Source of the DNA: Zygnema cylindricum
Lineage: Eukaryota > Streptophyta > Zygnematophyceae > Zygnematales > Zygnemataceae
Length of the DNA stretch: 64,000 nucleotides
Direction: 5' to 3'
Assembly (NCBI GenBank): GCA_037447655.1
Contig: JBBHKE010002248.1
Location: forward strand, 62,001 to 126,000
The notes under the pieces were generated by a model. That model was given only the letters and a program-made list of their open reading frames with translations. It did no database searches and was not told the DNA's origin. The translations under genes were made by a program, and so were the position numbers. Positions 1 through 34,420 of the stretch are shown here, in pieces. Position 1 is the first letter of the stretch, and every line of letters starts with the position of its first letter.

Positions 1-31
1 AATAACAATTTTTCGAATGCTCCCGCAACGT

Positions 32-283
32 TCACGTGTTGGCTCCTTGTAGGCTTAATAATCCATTTGAGTTTATTTTTGTTATCCTCAAGATATGAGC
101 TGAAACATCTGTGTTGAGTGTGTCAAAAGTTTGCTGTCGCAAATAAATGTAATCCCCCACCCGGAAGGGTTTTTGTTGTGGCCAGTAGCTGTAATTGCGA
201 GTCGTTGCAAACCGTAAGGAGTCGCGATGTTGGGCAATCTGCAAGTTTTCAAAAGCCATGGGCATTTCGGTAGCAAAAAGCAA
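32..283 (-). pseudogene. Gypsy polyprotein C-terminal segment after integrase
   Basis: An 83-residue open segment following the integrase core in the same polyprotein direction. It contains a basic stretch ending in a KPFRVGDYIYLR-like motif, the usual start of the integrase C-terminal fold in gypsy elements (kpFkvGDlVlLr). A stop separates it from the integrase core at about 284. The rest, including any chromodomain, lies beyond the window start or is lost. Confidence 0.6.
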
Positions 284-286
284 CGC

Positions 287-1117
287 TCAGTTGGTCAATT
301 CCTCCAGAAAAAGAGAATCAGACGTAAGAGGCAAAGGTAAGCTAGCAACTTTGTATACATTTCTACCTAGTAGTGGTTTTCGACCAAACAACACATAATA
401 GGGGCTCAAATTTGCCAAGCTCGCCTGTACAGATATGCGATAACCCATGATAATATATCCCAATGATTCATCCCACACCGTAATATGTTTTTCTAAGCAA
501 TGTTTACGCAAAGCACGCTTGAAGGTTTGTACAAATCTCTTTGCCAAACTGTTTGCTTGAGGATGATCTCGACTCGTCAGCCGGTGATCGATTAACGCCT
601 ACTCATACATCTCTTGAAATTCGTCGCGGAACTCGGTTCCTTGGTCGGTAAGTACTTCTAAGGGGGCTCCGTACCGGAGGAGCACGTGCTCCTTAAAAGC
701 TGAGGGGGTAAGTTTGGCAGTTTTCTGCGAGAGTGCCAAAACTATCACCCATTTGCTGAAATTTTCAATCATAATCATAATGTACTGCTTTCCCTTTTGA
801 GAAATTGGGAAAGAGCCTGTCAAGTCACACGACCATCTATAGAAGAGCCCTCCAATAGGCAAGGGTTGAAGGGTGGTTTGCCGGTTAGAAAAATGATGTT
901 CGTTGCGGTCACATGTGCTACATTCGTGCAACACAGCCACCACATCAGCTTGCATGTCGGACCACCAATACCTTGCCTGTACCAAACTCAAAGTCCGTTT
1001 GGTGCTATAATGTCCAAGGTCAGTATGAATTTGGTTGATAAGTGATAGTCGTTCCGTCGGCCAAGGAACATGCTGATGACTCTCATCTGCAATGACACGA
1101 ATGAGTGAGCCCCCCAT
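287..1117 (-). pseudogene. Gypsy integrase (HHCC zinc finger and DDE core), broken
   Basis: Two open segments (1117-599 and 547-287) form one integrase that would insert cDNA into the genome. The first holds the H2C2 finger (HTDLGH ... CSTCDRN), the first acidic motif (WSCDLTGSFP) and the second (LTDQGTEF). A stop near 599 interrupts it. The second begins in the third DDE motif, which normally reads like GLAERFVQTFK; here it reads SLAKRFVQTFK, so the catalytic glutamate is a lysine. With that change and the stop the copy should be inactive. Fold assignment is secure; the remaining C-terminal part is the separate segment at 32-283. Confidence 0.85.
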
Positions 1118-1557
1118 CCACTACTAACTTTAAGCTTTGTTACAAACACGCTCCTCCTCTCTTGGTAGGGCACCCGCTCGAAAACACTAAGTGGATAAAA
1201 AGAGAACCAAAGCACTGTCCCGCCATGGATCGTGTTTGGTTTTGTGGTTTGTAGGTGCTTCAAAACTGTAAATGAGATGTGCTCTAGCTGATAAAGAGGT
1301 AACTGATTCGTCATCAAAATCATGTCGCACACCATAATCATTGGAGTGTGGCAAAGGGTTCTTAGAGAGGCCGACGACATTCAAACTGAGGAGCCCAAGT
1401 CGATGGATTATTTCCATGTCATATTTTTGTAAAATAACAGCCGAGCGAGCTAATTTGCCAGAGTGCTTCTCATTGGTCTTAAGCCAATGCAATGGTTGAT
1501 GGTCAGTAAGAAGGGTGAAAGGCTTGCCATAAGATAATGGCGGAAATGCTCAATTCC

Positions 1558-1912
1558 CTAAACCGCGGTAAGGCAGTCCCCCACATAACTACTGTAATTA
1601 GATTCCGCTTGATTGTTGCTTCGACTGGCATACGCCACCACATATTCCTCACCTCTGAAATCACGCTGAGTTAGGATGGTCGCAATACCAGGCTTACCAA
1701 AGTCTGTATGTAGGAAAAAGGGTAACTTATGATTTGGTGGAGAAAGAATCAAAGCGGCAAAAGGGTAGCTTATGATTTGGTGGAGAAAGAATCAGAGCGG
1801 TGGACAGTGCGTCCTTTAATCCTTGAAATGCCTTGATCTGCGGGGGTCCCCACTTGAACGGAACTGACTTCTTCAAGAGTTCATTTAGGGAGATGCAAAT
1901 GTGTTGAAACAA
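1558..1912 (-). pseudogene. Gypsy RNase H region with internal 43-bp duplication
   Basis: Two overlapping open segments (1912-1727 and 1752-1558) encode the RT/RNase H junction typical of gypsy (FKWGPPQIKAFQGLKDAL, then LHTDFGKPGIATILTQ and VVAYASRSNNQAESNYSS). The peptide ILSPPNHKLPF occurs in both because a segment is tandemly duplicated (about 1721-1763 and 1764-1806). The 43-base offset shifts the frame and splits the domain. The RNase H part is truncated soon after the YAS motif. Confidence 0.75.
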
Positions 1913-2919
1913 GGAACAAAACGCCGGTAATAATTGGCTAACCCTAGGAATGCACGAAGGCTAGTCAAATCCGTTAGGGGCCGGTAGTTTACTAATAGCT
2001 TCCACTTTGACTTATAGCGGGGTAATTCCCTCAGACGAGATAAAATGCCCAAGGTATGGTACACTTTCAGCCCCGAAATTTCATTTGGCAGGATGACATT
2101 GAGTCCGTCATTATTTAATTCTTTCAATACCCACTCTATATGCACTACATGTTCCTCTATAGGGGCTGAAGCGATGATTAGATCGTCAATATAGCAACGG
2201 GCAAACTTACATCCCCCCAAGATTGAGTCCATGACTTTCTATAATACTACCGGTGCATTTTTCAGTTTAAAGGGCATAACCGTCCATTCCCAACGTTCGT
2301 CATTACCCCAAAATGCAGTCTTGTGTCAATCTTTTTCCTCTATATCGATTATATTAAATCCTTGTCGTAGATCTAAGATGCTGAAATATTTAGCTCCTCC
2401 AACATGATCAAAAATTTCCTCATCCAACGGCATTGGATGTCGGTCCTGGATTCTAAGTGAATTCAGTTCTCGATAGTCCCCACACATGCGACGTTCTGTA
2501 AAATTTCCCTCGACCTCTTTTTTACAAGGCATGACGGTGGGCGCCACAAAGGTGGAATCTGACCTATAAATCACATCTCCCTTTTCGAACTTTGCGCATC
2601 GTTTGTTTACGGATTCCCATTCAGTTGCTAATAGACAATGCTTGGCCTTAAATAAAGGTTTGTCATCTCCCAGGTCAAAAGACATTTTGTAAGTGGTGTG
2701 TCGACCTAAGTCTTTCATGGAGAAAGCAAATGCATCTACGTTTCGGTTTATTGCTTCATCCAAAAGTCGGTGGTCCGGTTTTGTTAGTCCCCTTCCGAAT
2801 TTCCATGTCAATTTTTCAAGCGTGGTGATGGTCATGGCTTCCGTGGCCTGTGCAAATGCTAGCTGCTCATCCGCTATTAAAGAGTGCCCCAACTCATACT
2901 CGACTGGGAGCTGATGCAA
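1885..2919 (-). pseudogene. Gypsy reverse transcriptase, split by an in-frame break
   Basis: Segment 2919-2326 (197 aa) carries the start of the RT domain: RRMCGDYRELNSL, DRHPMPLDEEIFDHVGGAKYFSILDLRQGF. It stops at EEKD. The continuation is open again at 2232-1885, with the polymerase active-site motif CYIDDLIIAS (YIDD, usual YxDD) and the thumb-proximal motif LRAFLGLANYYRRFVP. Sequence between the two also reads as RT (KTAFWGN, VMPFKLKNAP). The catalytic aspartates are present but the frame is interrupted. Confidence 0.88.
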
Positions 2920-3580
2920 ACATTGTACTACATGATGCCAACTTCTAGATGGAAATATAGCTATTTAGTGTGGTGATGCCCGTACCGGTACTTGAGATCT
3001 AGCGGCGGTGTATGCTGGAAAGAGACAAACTGATGTGACTTGGTTCCAAAAATCATGAATAGTGTGATGTGTGTCAGACAAAGTGAGGAAAGGAAAAAGA
3101 GAGAGCTGAAAAGTTGTACCCCGAAGAGAAGGTGAGGATTTGGAAGTTGTGTGTTTAAATGGTGTATGCCCCCCCCAGCTGATTGAGACAGATGGTTCTG
3201 TGCATATTGACCGCCTGCGAACCCCATGCCCAAGACAAATGACACTGATTGGGGATCCATGACACGACCACGTAAGGTACAGCGCTACCTCTCGGTAAGT
3301 CTCGGAGCAGTTGTGGTGCCTGCGATAAAATGTATAAGATGTTCTCGTTCTGCAGCAGTAGGTTCTTCTAAGCTGTCTGTTGAGTGTTTTGAAGAATGCC
3401 CGGTCCGTTATGTGAATATGCGTGTGAGTGTGGATATGCCACTAGTGAACGAACTGCCCGTAGTGGCTGGCCAAGGATGTTAACACAAAATGGAAGAGGA
3501 TAGTCTGTCTGGATACATGTCTGGTTCTTATGAAATGGAAGAAGTGCATCTTGAATGGACAGGTTAGGTGGTCAGACAGT
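2920..3580 (-). pseudogene. Degraded gypsy spacer between methyltransferase and RT
   Basis: About 660 bases between the RT segment and the solo LTR. Short open pieces occur (for example 3260-2961), but no domain was recognised in them. Position in the element implies it encoded the linker between the methyltransferase and the RT. Confidence 0.4.
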
Positions 3581-5066
3581 TGTTGATATTTGAGGATTTT
3601 CTAGGTCTGTATTAGGATAGAAAAAGAGCTGAGGCGGTCTGCCTCTAACTCCCCTCACCAAGCCCCCACACTTGTTGTAGTCATTGAAGGCTGGAAATGG
3701 AGCTAGAGCCATGGCCACCTTAACTCTCTAGAGAAGACAAAGGGTGGATTAGGTTGATTGGGGTGGATTAGGTTGATTTACCAAAAGGTGCTTGACAGAC
3801 ATAGGAATTGATCTTGGTACTTGCCGTCCGTCAAGTCAACGTAGCCATTAGCTTTAACCGTTAAGTCTAGAACTAGTGTTGAATATAAAGAGTTCGATAA
3901 ATATATAAATAGTTACACGTAGATTAATTCGTTTAACGGGAAATAGATACTTAATACATAAATACAATTTAATTTAGTACAGAGTACGGTACAAGGACGG
4001 AACGGATACCGCGCATTTGTTTCGCTATCAAAACAAATATTGCGCACCAATTTTCGACGGCTAAAATTGAATGCCGGTTTAAATCGGACAGCCGCGATAA
4101 ATGTCGAGATTGCGGAACAGGTTTTTTGGCGTTTGCGTACGTCACCACTCTGAATGACACGTGGCGAGATTGTACAGGTTGCGAAATCTCTGGAAAAGAA
4201 CATAACACATCCAAATGTGACAAATGTCACATTATAACATCATCGTACAATGTCCGTACAAAAAGTACTCCAGTACCTGTACTTTATGTACGGTACCGTT
4301 TTTCTGACGTGGCATGACTTGGCGCCACGTGGAGGGATAAGATTTGGAAGCAGAAATTCTAGGGATTATAAGAGCGGATCCAGATAGGACATGTGTTAAG
4401 TTTTTTGCCATGTCGTATTACTGCCGTACAAAAGGTACACTGGCACCTGTACCTTTATGTTCTATACAGTAATTTGATTGGTCCGTACCTCAGAACTAGA
4501 GGGTTTAGAGAGGGGTTTAGGACTTACAATATTTCAGGTAGGTAGCTGCCTCTCCCAGAGAGCACTTTGTATAAATGGCACACTTTGGCTAGCCATACCT
4601 ATCAATTCAGTAGACCATTTTCAGTGATTCTTTTTGCACCGAACTCAGGGGAGTCCAAGCTACACCGGGGTTTTAGTCGGTCAGAGCCTTGTATAAATGG
4701 CACACTTTGGCCAGCCATAACTATCAATTCAGTAGACCATTTTCATTGATTCTTTTTGCTCCGGACTCAGGGGAGTCCAAGCTACACAGGGGTGTAGTCG
4801 GTCAGATTCTTTCCCTGCCTGGGTGGCTGCATTTCTAAGGGAAAGTCAAAGTGGGTGAATGTGTCCAAATCTCATATTTTAACTTTGCATTCTGTGGTGG
4901 AATTGAGCACACATAAAGTCTTATTTCACAAGGGTGAAGCTGTAATGGGGTTATGATTGTCAATTGGTCAATCATTAGGGTTTATATCAAGTTGGAGTCA
5001 GCACTATCTATATTAGCTTCTTTTGATCTGCGAATTCTGTGTGGCAATGGAGCCCATACAATTTCA
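3581..5066 (+). repeat. Solo Ty1/copia LTR inside the gypsy element
   Basis: Starts TGTTGATATT and ends AATTTCA, matching the TG...CA ends of the copia LTRs elsewhere in the window, and shares their internal landmarks. These are a start block with the 'gagctagagccatgg' motif, an antisense tRNA-like block (3803-3870), a G-box (near 4320), a GTAC stem-loop (about 4251-4300) and a TATA-like GTATAAATGG. No internal region follows, so it is a solo LTR. Flanking five-mers are acagt and acaac, so a clean target duplication is not visible. A 124-bp core-promoter segment is duplicated (4567-4690 and 4692-4815). Confidence 0.75.
4567..4815 (+). repeat. Tandem duplication of LTR core-promoter segment
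   Basis: Two nearly identical copies of about 124 bp, each starting TTGTATAAATGGCACAC and ending in TCGGTCAGA. Each includes the TATA-like motif and the downstream leader. Confidence 0.8.
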
Positions 5067-5083
5067 ACAACGAGGTTAGCTTC

Positions 5084-5952
5084 TTAAATTTGGCCTATGT
5101 CCACCAGGTTAGTCCATTTGGAACGAACCCAATGGGCTAGCGAACCGTGGCTTATGGCATCAATGATCACTGGTGGTCCACTTAATGATTCAATGCGTTT
5201 GTAATCTGCGAGAACCGTGGGTTGCGCGTCATTATAAGCTGCAACGTTTTCCAAGACGTATCCAAAAGGAGGGTCATGTTTTTGGAGGGAGTGGATAAGA
5301 CGAACCACCTCAAGAACAAGCTAGTACGCGGATCTATAAGACCTAAACCTTTCCCGACTCTGGACATACCTTGGCATTTCCAATCCCGCAAAAAGAGATC
5401 GATTGGTTCTAATTCCAAGAAATGGTGATCTTATTAGGCGAATATCCTGTGGAAGAGCCGAATGCATGTCGTAAAAAGCGGACTGGGTAAAACGTGTGGA
5501 TATTGTTCATGCAATATTTGACAGTGATGTATCTGAAGGCGCCTTGCCAAGGGATCAATATCTACCGAATAATAATGTTTAATAGGAAGCGTGTTCCGCA
5601 GGCAAGAGAGAAGTGAAGTACCGATTCCTATGAAAAAGTCTAAGATAACGAGACCATTCGAGTGAGGTTGTAAATTGACCAGTTTCCATTTAATAGGCAC
5701 AAACTCGGAAGGACCTATCGTAAAAAAGGGTGGATCTCGAATACTAGATAAGGGAATTGGTATAGTTAATTTGTCTAGTCGGTCAAAATTTGAAAAGTCA
5801 ATGGTAAATCCGGGAGTACTAAATAATTCTGGTAAACCTGGGGGATCAAGTGAGATTTCATCTGCTGTTCGAGATGCTTCAAAGATGTCTGCACCTATGC
5901 CAACTACAGCATAGATTGGGAAGATCAGCGCCGAATGGGCCGTAGTAGGCAT
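5084..5952 (-). pseudogene. C5-cytosine DNA methyltransferase domain inside the gypsy element
   Basis: Would transfer a methyl group from S-adenosylmethionine to cytosine C5. The segment 5952-5434 has an N-terminal linker, then motif I (VILDFFIGIGTSLL; family form DxFxGxG), then motif II (HYYSVDIDPLARR). The next piece (5418-5182, another frame) holds the catalytic-loop motif as WKCQGMSRVGKG: the cysteine is kept but the preceding proline of the usual PCQ is lysine. A frameshift then leads to 5308-5084, with the ENV motif (GYVLENVAAYND) and the late GSxAHxxRxxWTNL motif (SHGSLAHWVRSKWTNL). Motif order is canonical and the piece lies between protease and RT. The frame changes and the proline change mean this copy is dead. 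It resembles the retroelement methyltransferases of charophytes more than a host enzyme. Confidence 0.87.
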
Positions 5953-6059: not shown

Positions 6060-6880
6060 CGGAAAATAACGTCTTGACCGACCAAGCATTCATAGTCACT
6101 ACACTTGGTGACCAAGGCGTGAGCATATTTTTCTGCGAAATTGGTCACTGATTGAGTCCGAAACTGAAAACAGATTGGTTCTATCGTAATACCGAGGACT
6201 AGCTCTGTGGTACCTCAGGAAGTCAATAGACGTGTGGGAGTGGGTTGTAGCTTATCAGCTATAAGACCTATTTCGATGGCAAACTCGGAACCGAGGATAA
6301 GTGGCTTTACAACTATATCCATGAGAGGAAGTGTTATGGCAAACCCATTAACTATGAACACGCCCAATTTGTTATCTAGAAAATTGATGTGAGGAGTGAG
6401 GCTAGAGTGCTCTTCAAGAGTAATAGCTTGAAGGGAGAGTGAATTACGATGGTTTTGTAATGCTTGTAACGCAACTGCTGAAGGAGTTAGATCTACGATT
6501 TTTTCATTGCTATCCAACTCAGGAAGCATGGTGGACAGGATGGACAAACGTTATTTGACCTTATAGGTGTCTTGTATGCTCCTCTCTAAAATTGTTAATG
6601 CTTCAGCGGTGATGCTTGAGGTTGTTTCTAGAATAGGGGAGCTGGGTTCTTTAGCAAATGATAGTGGGATACGCGTATTAATGGATTTTGACTTGCGATT
6701 ATGATCGGGAGTCCCTTTAAACTGAGCTGTCCGCTGTTGAACAATGAACTCGCGAAGAGATCGCCCAGCAAAAGAGGGCATATGGACCACAGTTCGAGCC
6801 ATTCCAGTTAATTGCGGTTTGACCTGTGCCATAAGCGCGGCAAACTGCTCCTTCATCATGGACGCCGCGGTAGCCTGCAT
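6060..6880 (-). pseudogene. Gypsy gag C-terminal linker and aspartic protease, active site changed
   Basis: Segment 6880-6551 is a linker without recognised domains. Segment 6547-6215 and its continuation past the stop contain a retropepsin-like fold (GVFIVNGFAITLPLMD ... GSEFAIEIGL). The active-site triplet, normally D[ST]G, reads D-I-V here (LMDIVVKP), so the copy is inactive. A downstream LVGQDVIF motif, typical of the end of this protease type, is present near 6070. It directly precedes the methyltransferase. Confidence 0.6.
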
Positions 6881-6999
6881 CTCGGTTTTCTCTCTGTCTT
6901 TCTACTGATTTTTGGAGGGTTGTCTTCCTTTACCCCTTTGGGTGGAGTGACCAATTTTGCCGAGCAAGTAGGTATACCACCGTTTTTGATTTGATTTTG

Positions 7000-8354
7000 A
7001 TAACTGAAATCGGGAATTTTTATGTGACATCGATGTACATAATGACCTGTTGAATACAATGAATACACGTGGCGGTCTTATCCATACAGCTGCGTGCGTC
7101 GTGACCAGTGTTACCACATCAGAAGCATGTACGAACACCAGGGTTTGTTGGTAATGTTCCCATGGCCGGAGCTCTTGGAGGTCTCGGATTAGGCCATGGG
7201 TTGCGTGGATTAGGATTAGGATTGGGGTTTTCATTAGAAGAAGACTTAGGTCGCTCATGAGCGTCCCACCAGCTGGTCTGCATTTCATACCGTACGGCGT
7301 ATTCTACAGCCTGCTCGAAAGTAAATTTGAGGCCATATGCCTCAGTCAGATGGCTTTGAATGAAACGTCGAGATTGGGTGGGAAATTGCCCCACAAATTT
7401 CTGAACTGCCTCTGCGTCTGACATGAGGTCTGGCAGTGCTTCACGTAATGTTTCCATACGTGCTCGCAATACCGGAGCGGTTTCGCCTAGGCAACGTTCA
7501 AAATTCATTAGTTCTTTAACCTGGTTCGGATTTTGCATTCAATATTCTTCCTGTAATAAACTGAAGACAAACGATACCGAATCCCTTAGAGGAACCAGCA
7601 TTGCAGGGCGAGCTGGAATTGCTGCCTGAGCTGCAACGACGAATTGATGAGGGACCTCAGGTATTTCCGGTGAAATTTCGTTACCTGCAGAGTCATAAAC
7701 TGCGGGTACCGCAGCTTGGAAAAGAATTTCTGGACTGCCTGTTATGGCTAAAGACCCAGAATATGCGGGTGCCATTTCTGTCATAGCACAAATTGCCGCA
7801 TATTTCCGTGTATATAGAGATAGGGCAGATCCCCTAAGGTATCGCCCAAGTAACGAAAAAGCAACCCGTAAATCATAACGGTCTTGATACCGGAATGCGA
7901 GATCGCGCATCTCGGTATCGAAAAGCATTCGAAAATGTGACAAGGACATAGTGTTCTTGAGACCCGAGAAACAAAACTGATTTCTACCTCCTCCGGTGTC
8001 TATGGACGATGACATGTCCACGCTGAAAGGACGGTGATTAGTGTGTATGGTACCGCCTACCGAGAAAATTGATGGCGGTAAACCTAGACCCTGTATGTCA
8101 AGCGAGTCGGTGTCCGAATCTTCCCCCGAACTGTGGGTGAAAGACGAGGAAACAGACGACGTAGACCTATGGAGAGAAAAAAGACCAGATCTCGACTGAC
8201 TGGGTGATTCTAAAAATGGAGACTGAACTACTGGGTTTGGCAAAGATATCGGAGGGAAGCCGGCTGTGATCAACCATCTAGGCGGCCCCCGGTAAGCACC
8301 TGAGCTTTTGGTGGTACCAGCCGGGAACTGTAAATTATTCCAGTCTGTTGGCAT
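7000..8354 (-). pseudogene. Gypsy Gag with two broken CCHC zinc knuckles
   Basis: Gag would form the particle and bind RNA. The open segment extends upstream to 8426, but the first ATG in a gag-like context is at 8354 (MPTDWNNLQF). A capsid-like region (YDLRVAFSLLGRYLRG) is followed by a single in-frame stop at 7539, then the same frame continues to 7119 (CLGETAPVLRARMETLREAL ... GQFP). A proline/asparagine-rich tract (NPNPNPNP) precedes the knuckles. Knuckle 1 reads CF-stop-CGNTGHDARSC, with the stop inside the CX2C. Knuckle 2 is split by a frameshift between CIHC and GHYVHRC. Confidence 0.75.
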
Positions 8355-8544
8355 GTAACCAGAAGATTGTCCTATCCGAATGCAGCTAAATGCCAAACAC
8401 ACACAAAAGTATGCTAATAACCGCAAACCAGAAGCACCACACAGTTCAGTCTATCCTGGATCACCGGAGTTAGTCTACTCGTAAACTGCCTTTCACAATC
8501 CCACTCACGTCACGCCATGCTAAGCAAACTCATGTCACCTATGC

Positions 8545-8666: not shown

Positions 8667-10709
8667 ATCAAGACCGGTCAAGGCAGATCTAAGACCATGC
8701 AACAATGATGTCCTATAGGAAGAAAAATAGCGTAGCCTTTAGTAAAATCTCTAACCCTCTAAACGAGTACGCTCGATAACCTATATCGCGCCTGCGCCCA
8801 CAAGGATCGGTTACTCACCTAAAGCGATAGCATCCAGTAGGATACTATAAATATCTCCCTATGATGCTCCAATTCCAAGTTATCGTAATCACACCACAGC
8901 TCAATGCCAAAGTAGTTAGTAGCCTGTTAGGGTACGCGTATTAGCTTTAAGCCACGCTCTACCCAACTATTAAAGCAGTTATAATTTTATGTGATAATTC
9001 ATGCAACGTGATTTATATATTTAGATGTATATATATTTTTTTGTTAGTTTTTATTATGGATTTTTTTTTTTTTATAAGTTTTTAGGTTTGCTAGGTTTTT
9101 TGAGTGAGTTAATCCGGTAGGTAGACAGAAAGAGGACACTATACCGGATTTACAGATAAAATCGGAAATATCTAACTCAAAGCCCACTAGCAACGAAACC
9201 CTAAAGATGAAAATAAAAACAGATTAAAGAATCCAAAGAAAACCACTAAACTGGAAAAGAAAACAAATTACAATAACTAGATAGTAAGAAAACAATTGAC
9301 ACAAGGAATGATAAAAATTAGAAATGAAACAAAATTAAAATAAACTAGAAATAAAGAAACTAATTGACGCCAGGAATAAAGAAAATTAGAAATAAAAACA
9401 AATTAAGCACGGGAATATTTGCGACAGTAGCCACTAGGCTCTGAAGTCTTTTAATATTCCCTACAAGAGTCCAACCAACAGACAAGAACCCTTCCTTAAC
9501 TGGACGAAGGAGCCGAGATAGCCGGTATTCCCAAAAAGCCAGACATGACTGGAGCTAGACTGCAAAGTCAGCGCTTTGACATCAAGTAAACACCAAAACC
9601 CAATTCGTACACCCAGGCAAATAGAACACAGTCTGGAGGGAAACCTTGCAATCTAGCTTGCGCTAGTAGATTAGATAAGGACTTGGTACAAAGAGAGAAT
9701 AGTTTAGAGATCCACTAGCATAGACTATGGGCCTAAAGAAAACCCTAACTCAAAAACTAGCCTATCACTAAATATTTAGGTGAAACCCTAACGATACAGT
9801 TCAACAAATCTTGAGAATAATGCTTGCAAGAAAACGACAACCTTCCAATGTTGGATTCCCGTACTTAATTTGCAAAAGTTCTTATTTAGCCAAATGGCAT
9901 TTATCCTATGCTTTCACTAATCCGTACAGCTACACTAATTCCTACATGTCCCTGAACAAGCATGTTTCTATGTTCAAACGCTGCCAGTTTCTAGAGACGA
10001 CCGCTGCATGGCCGCCTCAAAATGCCTCACATCTACACCTCGAGGATGAAAACCCTCCCTAAGCAAAGCAAAAGTAATGCATGAACCTCGAAGGGTTCAT
10101 GACTTCAGACACCTGTCAGGTTTGGAGTCGTTTGATTTCCTGAAATCTGATGCCGTACAGCGGTCCAGTTTCACGCTGCGGTGTACGGGAGAATAATCCG
10201 ACCTTTGTTCCGTACGTATCTCCAGTTGTACTCTCAGATATGAACTTGTCACGTCACCAAAACGTCATTAAAGATACGACTAAATAATAATGCCCTTCGA
10301 CGTCTTACTACATGACATTTATCAACGTTGAACTACTCGTATAATTCTTTTAGCGGTAAGTGTCAAAACGTAATCTTTACTCTAAACACATTAAAGTCTA
10401 ACTCACGCATCATTCTCTTCTCTTGGTTAATCCGAACGCTATGGGTACTCAGACAAGTGTAGTTTGACTCGCGTATTGATCGCCAAACAGTTTTGCTCGT
10501 GAAGGGTGACTATGCCTTTGAAACGTCGATATTATAATTTCGTTCCTTCAAATTCGTGGTCATGACCATGTGGGCCAAAGAAATGAAATTTGGTGTTAGT
10601 ATTTGCGAGCTAAGAGAGGTAGATTTACGCGCCCACACAAATCTAAGGTCAATTCAAGTAGCTAAGGCACAATTTGATTACAAATCAAGAATGGGTATGT
10701 CATGATGAA

Positions 10710-22934: not shown

Positions 22935-27836
<4,902 letters not shown>

Positions 27837-28120
27837 GGCTTGCTTCACGAGGTAATGGAAGGTGATAAAGAGAGTCGAAAAAGGTTTGTAAATTTATCAA
27901 CTTCTGACAAAAAAGAAAAAGGACAAACGTCTCCGATCAGATCTCACGTGAACTCAGCCGATTAATTAGAACAGCAAACCCTAAAAACCATAATAGTGGC
28001 AGAGAGTGGGAGCTAGGGATTGTTGGTAGGAATATATGGAGGTCCGGTTGAACAATAACTTGGAAGTTGTGAAGCCGTGGAAGAGTGAAGGGAGACGATT
28101 TAGTATTTACCATACAGCTT

Positions 28121-30046: not shown

Positions 30047-31486
30047 CACCAACACGGAAGAATCTACACCCCCTTCGCCACCGAATCTGGTCATCCGTCA
30101 AACCGCAAATACACTCAATCCACTCATCCCTTCTAGCCCGACTCTTGTCACCTCGACCTATGTTAACTCCAAAGATATTCAACTAGATGTTATCATGCGA
30201 ATGGGCATAATGTCCCGTAGTCCTACGAACCTCGTCGGTCCTCATGTTCTCTAGACGCTCAATTGACAGAGCAGTCAACTGCTTAATGTAGGTGAACTGA
30301 GATTGGATGTTGGTAGCTTAACACGATTATTGTTGAGCGATAGCCAGATCAAGAACTAGAGGTAGGGTGGTTGCCTTCCCAAAAAAACCGTGCGCTGATT
30401 GTCTGATTTCGTGAATGAGGCTACTCTTTGAGCGATGTGAGTCGTGCCACGAAGACTCTTTGGTGGGGGTCGGGGTGGTGGGATATGCGAGGTTTGAGTG
30501 GATGTTGAGGAGTTTCGTATGAGCGTCATCATGTCTAAGAACTCGTCAAGGGAGAATGCACCTTTACTAATATTACAAAATTCACAGCTCCACCATAGCC
30601 TATAACCAACACCAAAATAACTAATCTTATCTCCATTTTTATCTTGGCTCGTCTCCCTCTCTATTTGTGATGTCATTTTCAACCCGGCATGAAACTCCAA
30701 CACCCCTCCACAAAACCTACAACAATCACATTCCTGTTCAAACAACAACTCTAATACTTTTACATTAAATTTTGTTGCATAAACACCACTTTGAGGAAGA
30801 CGCATGTTTCTTATGGTTTGTCCTTTTTGAGTGAGGAAAGCAGACAGCAAGGTGCAAATTCTTGAGGCTCTCCGGAATCGCTTCCTCCGCATAATATGGT
30901 GATGTTGTTGGCAGTATTTCTCTGTTGTTGCCGCGAAAAAACACGACCATCCGCTTTTTACTCCATTGTTGTAGGATTAGCGAGGTGTGGTGGAGTCTTG
31001 AGGAGGTGGTAGCGTTGGTTTTTTTCCACGCGCAGTGGATGTAGTGACATTGGGAAAACGTTTGATGTAACATTCATGATGCACAGTACAGTACCACAAC
31101 CAAATTTCTTGGTGAAGAGGTTTGCCGCATATGATTTGTTGGGCCTCATGTATTGCCGAAGAATTACGAGTATACGTAGCGGTACAACCCAAGACGTCGT
31201 CAGCTTTTGCCCTCAAGATGAAGTTGTCAATAGGAGGAAGTTGAGGCACAACACGCCCTAGTATTTGATACAGTTGTTTATCACTATTATTTCTATAACT
31301 GCTATTACTAGATGATGTATATGATATTGATGCATATAATGTTGATGAAATTACTTCAACTTCATTAAGTTCAACAAAAGCGACTGAAGGATTCCCATTG
31401 TTAGCAGCCCGAGATGCATTTGGTTTTGTAAGACCCAAACTAACCAACCCCGACTGCACACATGAAAAATGATGTCTATTAGACAT
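30047..31486 (-). pseudogene. HNH-nuclease-like gene, interrupted or of unresolved exon structure
   Basis: Segment 31486-30977 (169 aa, unknown domain ending in WLWYCTVHHECYIKRFPNV) is followed in the same frame, after a single TAA, by an open stretch containing 30892-30356. The latter has an HNH/treble-clef pattern: CRFCGG, then SQIERE, then WWSCEFCNISKG and SLDEF, as in CxxCG ... S[IQ][DE]R ... CxxCNxxKGxxSxxEF nucleases. After a frameshift near 30358, coding-like sequence continues (NIQSQFTYIKQLTALSIERL; RRDEWIECICGLTDDQIRWR) to a strong donor, GCG|GTAAGTGC, near 30047. The first methionine may be false, because TGTGTGCAG near 31460 looks like an acceptor. It could be a spliced gene with unrecognised introns or a decayed selfish nuclease gene. 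Confidence 0.45.
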
Positions 31487-31514
31487 TAAGATGTCTCAAG
31501 AATTTAATAAATTA

Positions 31515-31730: not shown

Positions 31731-34420
31731 AATTAATGGTTCTTGTTAGTATTATCTAGGTCTTAAACTGTATAAATAATGTAGAAAAGGATGGCCACCT
31801 CTAACTCGTTTCTTCAACTCCCACACTTGTCGCAGTCAGTGAAGGTTGGAGAGGGAGCTAGAGCCATGGTTGCCTATACTTTTCTAGAGAGAGACAGACA
31901 CTTATTCGGTAGGTTCACCAAAAGGGAACTTGACGGACCTAGGATTTGATCTTAGTACCTATTGCCTGTCAAGTTAGCTAGTAGACATAAGCCTTATCCT
32001 ATAAGTCTAAGACGAATGTTGAAGTATATGGGGTGTGACAAATATATAAATAGTTACATGTAGACAAATTAGTTTAACAGGAAATTGATACGTGGAACAT
32101 AGATACAGTTTTATATAGTACGGAGTATGGTATGGTGACGAAACGGATACCGCGCATTTGTTTTAATAGCGAAACAAATATCGCGCATCTAATTTCGACG
32201 GTAACAATTGAAAGCTCGTTCTGATCCAACGACTGGGATAGATGACGAGATCGTGGAATAAGTTTTTGGCGGTTTTCGGTCATCGCTACATCAATTAACA
32301 CGTGGCACAACCACATTGGCTTGCGGCATCTTTGGGGATTATATGAATGAATTTGGATATGGCATGTGTCGACTTTTGGCCATATCGTACGATGGCCGTA
32401 GAAAAAGTACACCGACACCTGTACCTTTAAGTACGATACAGTACTGTGATTGGAGCCGTACGTCAGTAGTAAGGGATTAGAGAGGAAGATACGACTTAGA
32501 AAAATTAAGCAGGTAGCCGCCTCTCTCCAAGAGAGCTCTTGTACAAAAGGTCATCTTTAACCATTTATAACTTACTGCTCAAAAGCGCAAATTCAGAGAT
32601 TCTTTTTGCTATCAACTCAAGGAAGTCTTGCCTTCACAAGGGTGGAAGTGGTCAAGTTTTTGTTTGCCAGGGTGAAGGGTCAAGGTGTTTCTAGGGGCTT
32701 CGTGTGAGCTGCCCATTCTAAGGACCTATTGAGGACTTAAAATTGCAGGTTAGGGGCCCACCCTCTAAGGTGCCCATATTTAATGGAAATGGCTTCATAT
32801 ACTTGGAAAGTATGATGATAAGAGCTCTATGTGAGAAAAGGTTTTGGGGAATACTGAGTGGACGGGTGAGGCGTCCATCTGGTTTTGGCATCCCTCTAAG
32901 GTTTGGAAGAAGCGCATTCACCAGAGATGCAGATCCATCTCTAGAAGACAAAAGAAAGGGAGGTGGTGGACAAAGGAAAGGAGAAGGAGATGATCACACC
33001 GTTAGCAATTAGTTTGGCATTCATGTCACCTATTTCGAGGAACGAGGAGAATGATATTGATACCTGAGACTACAACAATATGGCGGCAAAGCACTTCATC
33101 CTCCCCCATCTTACTAAAAGGCTTACATCTCTTTATTTGAAAGTAGAGAGGGCATCTAATATTTGGTTGGCTCTCATAGAGATGTACCGAAGTGGTACGA
33201 TTCAGCAACATCAGTTGGCTGATCAGAAAATTGACACTTAGGTATGCAAAAATGGGAAGAAGTTGGATTTTTGTAATGAGCTCGCCTTACTTTTTATAGA
33301 GCTAGAGAGTGTTGAAGATGTTGAAACTGAAAAGATGAAGGTTAACTGCTTGCTTATGAAGTCACCGGATAAGTTCGAGAACATAGTCAACCGGGTGCAG
33401 GACTTCCGGATTCAAGGTAGATATGGAATCCAGTGGTGGGGATGATTCTCGTTCAGGAGAACACGATTGAGATCCGGACGAGAGGAAAGAGTGGGCAAGC
33501 CTTGGCAGCTGGGATGGATTGGAGGAACAAGGATTCTAGGAAACTGGTTGGAAATTATGGAGGGGGGGGGCAGAAAAATCACACCAACGAGTTCGGACTG
33601 AGGGCTCTCAAGATTTGTGTCATTTTGTAAAAAATCGAGCACTATATGGCGGAGTGCACTAAGCTAACCGAACTTTGGTTAAAGGAGGGGCAGATTAATG
33701 GACCTCGAAGAGGAAAGAAAAAAGGCTCTTGTGACTCAGGTAGACGAAGAGGAATTCGAGGACGAGGACGGTGAGCTCTTATTGGGTGAGGAGTTTGAGG
33801 CGAAGATCGAGGTCGAAATTCCTTGCAAGCAGAAATGTGCTTTCGGAGGTTTAAAAGGTGAAGGAGGTTGGATTGTGGATTCGGGTACCTTTATGCACAT
33901 GTGTTAGGATAAACACGTGTTCATTAAGATGAGAAAGATTCCCATCGTAGAGATATAATATGGGGATGTGTACTATGGTAGGATCGGTAGATCTGAAAGT
34001 CTTAGTGAAGGGAAAGACATCCATACTGACATTCTCTAATGTGTTGTTTATTCCAGAGTCAAACAAAAACTTCATCTCGACATCTGTATTAGATAATAAG
34101 GGTTTTGAGACTAGCACTAGGAATGGAACATTTAATGTTAGCTTTGAGGAGGAAGTTTATTCCACAACTGAAAAAAATAGCCAAGGGATATTTAGGCTGA
34201 TTTTAAGCTATGAAAAGAAGAAACTTTACTATGTTGGTGTTCATGATATTATGTTGTGGCATCAGAGGCTTGGACATGTGCATTTCTATAAGTTAAAATA
34301 AATGAATAAGATGAGAATAGTGGAAGGAATTTAGTTTGGAGAAAATGAAAACTAGAGTGATTGTAGTGGTTGTGCTCAAGGTAAGGCACATAGGTTACTG
34401 TTATTCTCTGGTCTAAATTA
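31725..34420 (+). mobile_element. Truncated copia element F (5' LTR, gag, protease)
   Basis: LTR 31725-32747 (1023 bp, TGTAGGAATT...TTGCA), then a primer site GGTTAGGGGCCCACC (32748-32762) with one change from the family form, which also removes the usual gag start ATG. Gag follows (VPIFNGNGFIYLESMM, KKLDFCNELALL-like). A decayed knuckle, a protease with DSGTF in place of DSGAS (near 33880), and a GAG-pre-integrase block (MLWHQRLGHVHF) come next. Homology ends just after the CSGCAQGKAHRL motif near 34410. No 3' LTR was found. Confidence 0.85.
32748..34420 (+). pseudogene. Gag-protease remnant of element F
   Basis: Readable pieces at 32743-33012, 33263-33445, 33433-33630, 33698-33907 and 33960-34301 correspond in order to Gag N-terminus, Gag body, linker before the knuckle, acidic linker plus protease, and the pre-integrase domain. 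Many stops and frame changes; non-functional. Confidence 0.8.

Follow-up and report, generated by a model that had tools for sequence, protein, structure and literature searches.

The closest described system is KnitGypsy-Dnmt3 of Klebsormidium nitens, a gypsy element with a Dnmt3-type methyltransferase in its Pol, which was reported in 2018 (de Mendoza et al., PMC5890265). The passages of that report on which we draw describe conserved key residues and a Ka/Ks under 0.2 for this element, and present SymbioDIRS-Dnmt3 and SymbioLINE-Dnmt of Symbiodinium as independent acquisitions. The relevant passages of a 2019 opinion paper (PMC6338049) name green algae, charophytes and others as hosts of Ty3/Gypsy and DIRS elements that encode Dam or Dcm. 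Here we discuss an element from Zygnema cylindricum, found in a stretch of 64,000 nucleotides (contig JBBHKE010002248.1, positions 62,001 to 126,000) that we call the window.

The minus strand of the window, from position 10317 to position 5 and past the left edge, is a decayed gypsy-type element, and this dead element holds a real C5-methyltransferase domain between its protease and its reverse transcriptase (RT). The kind is already known from KnitGypsy-Dnmt3, split repeats included, and the window element is a dead member of it. Our reading, to which we give a probability of about 0.72, is that we are dealing with a dead gypsy-type copy from a green alga or plant, with a polyprotein that ended in a PHD finger and included a cytosine methyltransferase of the DNMT3 fold; purifying selection would maintain the enzyme in the family, its catalytic residues being intact save for the replacement of proline by glutamate in motif IV (ECQ instead of PCQ), and the enzyme may methylate the element itself or its landing sites.

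The element in the window

When the window is searched by tblastn with the frame of an intact copy from the same genome (the C1344 copy, described below), the window copy aligns along almost all of the frame and falls into the same family, hereafter family A; the two copies are 85–86% identical across nearly the whole coding stretch. Its parts are as follows, residues being numbered along the C1344 frame.

9416 to 10317, minus strand: degraded 5' split repeat A, with TGTCATG at 10317; aligned with repeat A1 of the C1344 copy in 902 columns, it is 86.6% identical
6886 to 8474, minus strand: gag region including the zinc-knuckle part (tblastn, residues 1–475 at 92% identity, 476–530 at 82%)
6215 to 6403, minus strand: aspartic protease region, from frame readings (tblastn, residues 520–810 at 6919–6047, 86%)
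5314 to 5697, minus strand: N-terminal part of the methyltransferase (motifs I, II and IV), with two stops (tblastn, 68% identity to the C1344 copy)
5362 to 5382, minus strand: motif IV, W-K-C-Q-G-M-S, with lysine where the family has glutamate
5066 to 5485, minus strand: middle part of the methyltransferase in another frame (ENV, AHWVRSKWTN; tblastn, 60% identity)
3581 to 5066, plus strand: Copia-like solo long terminal repeat (LTR) of 1486 bp within the methyltransferase, with TG..CA ends that were placed exactly by alignment with the C1344 copy
3168 to 3592, minus strand: C-terminal part of the methyltransferase (EEPTAAERE..GRVMDPQSVSFVLGMGF), past the solo LTR (tblastn, 59% at 3592–3323 and 85% at 3380–3168)
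1492 to 2964, minus strand: RT and RNase H remains (RVT_1 E 0.0027, below the cut-off, and RT_RNaseH E 1.1e-7, on different pieces)
5 to 1120, minus strand: integrase remains (Integrase_H2C2 E 1.7e-14, rve E 1.9e-11)

The methyltransferase motifs stand in canonical order, as the first-pass annotation had proposed for the interval between protease and RT: LDFFIGIG, YYSVDIDP, WKCQGMS, LENV and the late AHWVRSKWTN, the first four of which we take to be motifs I, II (or II-like), IV and VI. They are spread over two frames, in which the catalytic cysteine and ENV can still be read, and the frame break and the two in-frame stops of the first frame bear out that this copy is dead. The annotated extent, 5084 to 5952, does contain methyltransferase, but the domain continues to 3168 and is split by the solo LTR.

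A joined reading of 190 residues, with X at the stops, matches the C5-methyltransferase profile PF00145 narrowly over its cut-off of 22 (E 4.2e-5, 23.6 bits); the halves taken singly give E 0.29 and no match. Against the PDB, the best C5-methyltransferase match of the joined reading (E 0.12) is weaker than spurious matches to Npl4 at E 0.004. A window reading of 186 residues retrieved nothing at E 0.01 from the protein database searched and nothing from IMG/VR. The strong proof is the domain of the intact copy, which aligns by tblastn with window positions 5697–5314, 5485–5066, 3592–3323 and 3380–3168.

The alignment of the window with the C1344 copy runs up to 5067 and resumes from 3579. On the minus strand the flanks of the intervening stretch, 3576–3580 and 5067–5071, are ACTGT and GTTGT, each one change away from the GCTGT of the C1344 copy. 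Because of these 5-bp flanks and the TG..CA ends, we read 3581–5066 as a Copia solo LTR. It resembles other stretches of the window that adjoin frames with Copia-type domains. Window positions 31798–62071 are crowded with Copia-type frames and pieces of repeats, in both orientations.

There are 3 stops in the first stretch of the gag region; the protease has DIV in place of the DTG of the open copy, and its piece has no Pfam match. The RT and RNase H remains align with residues 1271–1815 at 3174–1492 (tblastn, 68% identity) with 8 stops, and the integrase remains with residues 1629–2313 at 2101–5 with 17 stops. Pfam matches to RNase H, the integrase zinc finger and the integrase core fall on separate pieces, and RT scores below the cut-off. 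The 3' end lies to the left of the window, where C1695:55642–55980 (in L026) matches the PHD end of the frame (tblastn, residues 2287–2395). It is parted from the integrase by an LTR-type insert of about 6.1 kb, from L026:3893 to window position 7, whose end repeats of about 965 bp are 95% identical. Of the split-repeat structure, the window copy retains only the 5' repeat A and part of the 3' end. After its insertion, the copy would have decayed by C-to-T changes, stops and frame breaks, by the arrival of the Copia-like solo LTR in the methyltransferase, and by that of the other element near the 3' end.

Other copies in the same genome

The assembly searched consists of 352,776,454 bases in 2689 contigs. 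It contains 123 scored matches to PF00145 among 782 candidates, many of them in long open frames. We sampled 37 of the 123 places (L001–L025 and L027–L048, doubles counted once), mostly open ones by choice: 20 belong to family A, 16 to a second family (family B) and one, L007, to neither. All sampled copies were found through the methyltransferase and copies without it could not show up, so the presence of the domain in 20 of 20 family A copies is no test of its absence elsewhere. L007 (C514:126680–126928) is a PF00145 match outside both element families, which may be an exon of a host methyltransferase.

The C1344 copy (L009 and L010) is a single frame of 2395 residues in the order gag, protease, methyltransferase, RT, RNase H, integrase and PHD; its part from gag to RT is the arrangement that the first-pass annotation had suggested looking for. 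PF00145 matches it with E 1.7e-11 and the PHD finger with E 4.8e-11; RVT_1 (1496–1647), RNase H (1739–1841), H2C2 (1962–2015) and rve (2035–2128) are also over the cut-off, and the CCHC zinc knuckle (E 0.0072) and the protease PF13650 (E 0.011) are weak and under it. Over 7.4 kb the C1344 and C1407 copies are 99.9% identical, beyond which they differ in the stretches compared, and repeat A of the C1344 copy is 100% identical to its partner; this suggests recent movement.

The weak profile scores of the lone window fragments might have meant that the methyltransferase had been inserted separately or that its frame arose by chance. Yet no fewer than four further copies of family A (L009, L011, L017 and L021) have methyltransferase and RT in a single open frame, and the window aligns to one of them at 85–86% over nearly the whole coding stretch. 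These open-frame copies refute the separate insertion, absent from other members of the family, that would have undone the original interpretation, and leave it next to no probability.

Family B (L013, L015, L041, L043, L047 and L048) is a methyltransferase-bearing gypsy-type family with PCQ. It comprises two subfamilies, B1 and B2, that are about 55% identical, and its PHD match in L013 and L014 reaches 23.9 bits against a cut-off of 24.

Split repeats and integration

The Pol order RT, RNase H, integrase and the DDE integrase, which characterize Ty3/gypsy elements, are both found in the C1344 copy. The two plain LTRs that such an element has at its ends are not: the order is A-internal-B-A-B in the three copies looked at (C1344, C829 (L019 and L020) and C1915 (L021 and L022)). 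Because of these split A-B-A-B repeats we call the element gypsy-type and not a plain LTR element.

In the same three copies repeat A measures 931 to 1475 bp and repeat B about 190 to 243 bp. The ends are TGTCATGC..GCACGACA, that is, TG..CA, and 4-bp target duplications (TTGG, AAGG and CCCT, respectively) stand on both sides. The inner B-A joint, GACAGCTGTC, is perfectly palindromic, and a run of G stands just ahead of B. C1374 has a single direct repeat only, and no split repeats were seen in the stretch of C544 (family B) that was examined.

The LTR in the retroviral sense may be B plus A, and the integrase may open a two-LTR circle at the palindrome; opening of the circle at the B-A joint would leave split repeats around an element that has a DDE integrase.

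The residue before the catalytic cysteine

In the window copy the residue that precedes the catalytic cysteine is lysine. It is glutamate in 20 of 20 family A copies and proline in 16 of 16 family B copies sampled; the Pro-Cys of the canonical DNMT3 motif IV is present in family B and absent from family A. Genome-wide, the pattern (Gly or Ala)-W-E-C-Q-G-M occurs at 150 sites and the same pattern read backwards at none. With any codon at the place of glutamate there are 153 sites, so that glutamate occupies 150 of 153; among the 100 of these that were listed, 98 have glutamate, one glycine and one a stop. The family B type of pattern occurs at 205 sites, and the 100 listed comprise 93 with proline and 7 with other residues, none of which is glutamate. 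Copies whose motif differs at further positions, the window copy among them, are not counted here. Glutamate is nearly fixed in family A, and it stays while the codons around it vary synonymously.

This corrects the claim that a Pro-to-Lys change before the cysteine had helped to kill the window enzyme. We reject it as worded: the change is from glutamate to lysine.

It may be that we are looking at an ordinary member of the KnitGypsy-Dnmt3 kind, in which the glutamate carries no particular meaning, being neutral or shared from the outset with the K. nitens element. The kind of Pol and the A-B-A-B repeats match the 2018 description, in the parts used here, and that description includes conserved key residues and the low Ka/Ks. 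However, going from proline to glutamate takes two base changes, and yet glutamate is kept at 150 of 153 sites amid synonymous variation, with none among the listed family B sites. We consider this explanation doubtful, if worth keeping in mind.

Relatives in the databases

Two protein searches returned 44 and 22 proteins, of which 63 are distinct. They have the same methyltransferase, many in a gypsy-type Pol and many with a PHD finger, and they are mostly of the ECQ type: the residue before the cysteine is glutamate in 47, proline in 12, aspartate in 2 and serine in 1, and 1 has a gap in the alignment. The Haematococcus lacustris proteins QJQ45_013313 and QJQ45_005750 (P0014 and P0043) are among them, and none of the 63 is named as a protein of K. 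nitens. The element had been annotated as a kind reported for charophytes and dinoflagellates; the charophyte report holds, and the distribution is wider, given the H. lacustris proteins and the green algae of the 2019 opinion paper.

In a set of 56 rows (44 database proteins and 12 copies of our own) the residue is glutamate in 42, proline in 13 and aspartate in 1. All 56 rows keep the catalytic cysteine and the glutamate and asparagine of ENV, and all 55 rows without a gap there keep the RxR arginines.

The trees are quick ones, with SH-aLRT support only and some long branches flagged. On the methyltransferase tree (76 rows, trait column left out), 6 changes are required for the glutamate/proline trait and 1 for the place that the domain takes in Pol, ahead of RT or behind RT/RNase H. 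A single clade of the 19 proline rows is rejected by the approximately unbiased (AU) test, with p 4.2e-5 (73 rows; the DNMT3A segment, P0044 and P0061 dropped). The RT tree includes 47 of the 49 rows with RT (two were too short), all from methyltransferase-bearing elements, with no named gypsy RTs; it shows a single change of place (support 99) and 4 glutamate/proline changes. Since both trees show the same single change of place, the methyltransferase and the RT seem to have moved as a unit, the domain changing place once. By the methyltransferase tree and the AU test, glutamate and proline have been exchanged more than once among related elements.

What the methyltransferase may do

Divergence between family A copies indicates that the methyltransferase is under purifying selection in this family: nonsynonymous divergence (dN) is well below synonymous divergence (dS) for L009–L031 (dS 0.116, dN 0.020) and for L021–L029 (dS 0.062, dN 0.015). 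In deeper pairs dN is 0.12–0.17 and dS is saturated (Nei-Gojobori count).

If the enzyme is active, the polyprotein would bring it into the particle or the pre-integration complex, where it could methylate the cDNA of the element or the DNA of the landing site; the PHD finger may tether the integrase to chromatin, and the glutamate next to the nucleophile probably adjusts the rate, the timing or the substrate without abolishing activity. The element would presumably benefit from such methylation.

Several observations weigh against the reading of a selected, active, DNMT3-fold enzyme. The methyltransferase evolves faster than the RT (dN 0.12–0.17 vs 0.03–0.045). The near-identical pair L009–L011 (dS 0.004) has a dN/dS ratio of 0.32, on almost no change, and the ratios of close family B pairs, from 0.11 to 0.46, include at their upper end a high value, beside one pair at 1.43 with dS 0.008 and very few changes. 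The DNMT3-type fold was found in a model of the database relative P0001, not of the window copy. If well-supported branches alone are counted, the changes required fall to 3 for the glutamate group and 2 for the proline group. CpG is undepleted in family A, with 0.88 to 1.07 in four copies (L009, C829, C1915 and C449), and over the methyltransferase region the mean observed/expected CpG is 0.80 in family A (n=20), compared with 0.67 in B1 (n=10) and 0.76 in B2 (n=6). Last, no methylation was seen when the KnitGypsy enzyme was produced in yeast, a result called inconclusive in the passage that reports it (PMC5890265).

Neither in pol nor in the methyltransferase region did we find CpG depletion as a trace of strong self-methylation by ECQ elements. 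Pol CpG is 0.60 and 0.65 in family B, and the contrast does not track ECQ against PCQ because B2 also has PCQ. Self-methylation of the cDNA, the role proposed in the first-pass annotation, may still occur, and CpG content gives it no support.

Such undepleted CpG, the inconclusive result in yeast and the replacement of the motif IV proline by glutamate in 47 of the 63 database proteins would all suit a pseudo-enzyme, kept for binding DNA, a partner or S-adenosylmethionine, in which glutamate marks lost catalysis. DNMT3L is a pseudo-enzyme retained for binding. On the contrary, a pseudo-enzyme would not need the cysteine, ENV and RxR residues that are invariant in our alignment, and the repeated exchange of glutamate and proline also speaks against it. 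We regard it as unlikely.

Another possibility is that the enzyme targets the host and not the element, by silencing rivals or host chromatin, or by slowing its own transposition. Between the window and C1344 copies, C-to-T or G-to-A differences affect 0.162 of CG, 0.154 of CHG and 0.082 of CHH sites, against 0.053 transitions at A/T sites; the direction is assumed, the C1344 copy being a relative and not the parent. The excess at CG and CHG implies that elements seem to be methylated, and there are a few hundred motif sites in the genome. Yet decay at CG and CHG is what one would expect from plant-type host enzymes, methylation by host and by element being inseparable here, and the decay of the window copy is as expected from CG and CHG methylation by the host. 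That the host is the target is, in our opinion, improbable.

We retain the reading of an active enzyme under selection. A bolder version of it is tentative and, on our estimate, falls short of even odds: the elements would form a large, widespread algal and plant gypsy-type group in which the DNMT3-fold enzyme exchanged the motif IV proline for glutamate by repeated selected change, with altered chemistry, substrate or control (being confined, for example, to RNA–DNA hybrid or single-stranded cDNA as substrate, or to the assembled state), and in which methyltransferase and PHD finger would make a writer-plus-reader unit in one polyprotein.

It is the living family, more than the broken window copy, that gives the find its importance. 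One genome offers a natural comparison of related elements (150 ECQ sites, and 205 family B sites with 93 proline among the 100 listed), by which one can test why retrotransposons should retain an enzyme that one would think liable to silence them, and what role is played by the proline that adjoins the catalytic cysteine of C5-methyltransferases. The catalytic-motif variant of this family deserves an assay.

Other features of the window

No tRNA genes and no Rfam matches over the gathering score were found in the 64-kb window. Two open frames of 206 and 172 residues without Pfam match lie at 30356–31495 on the minus strand; the frame of 206 residues has C-x2-C pairs and looks HNH-like by eye. 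A long simple repeat of the GA/CT type occupies 27188–27965.

Comparison with known systems

The assembly searched contains chlorophyll a/b-binding genes (88 matches); rbcL was not found in it. For one of these genes the top match is a chain of 620 residues with two matched stretches, followed at 316–322 bits by a chain named chlorophyll a-b binding protein 3 and two similar ones, the next group reaching 281 bits. These three chains are Lhcb3 of land plants, which suggests that the host is a streptophyte. The assembly of Zygnema cf. cylindricum SAG 698-1a has 359.8 Mb, with 29.8% Copia and 5.9% Gypsy, and its PHD family exceeds that of other Zygnema strains at least 9-fold (PMC9915684). If this is the same host, PHD-bearing gypsy copies annotated as genes could be behind the expansion. 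The passages of that paper at our disposal do not describe methyltransferase/PHD gypsy elements, the main-text passages of PMC5890265 that we used make no mention of PHD, and we found no description in the open-licence literature of the glutamate variant, of a methyltransferase and a PHD finger in one gypsy polyprotein, of a cytosine methyltransferase in a Haematococcus gypsy retrotransposon, or of the second place in Pol.

Haematococcus and many environmental proteins can now be set alongside the elements that the 2018 report described from a charophyte and from dinoflagellates. The domain order is readable in 49 of the database proteins, and 44 of these have the methyltransferase after RNase H or RT and ahead of the integrase, whereas in the window family it precedes RT. 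The catalytic domain of DNMT3A/3B has proline before the catalytic cysteine where family A has glutamate, and its companion domains differ. The Symbiodinium elements, as described in the passages cited above, likewise carry a methyltransferase in a retrotransposon reading frame, and SymbioDIRS likewise shows two domain orders, but they are of other classes, a DIRS element with a tyrosine recombinase and a LINE. KnitGypsy-Dnmt3, likened here by its published description and not by sequence, has in common with the present family a non-rearranged Dnmt3-type domain in an intronless gypsy Pol, a DIRS-like arrangement of the repeats, as in the family A copies, and purifying selection on the methyltransferase; the present family differs from it by ECQ in motif IV and by the C-terminal PHD finger.
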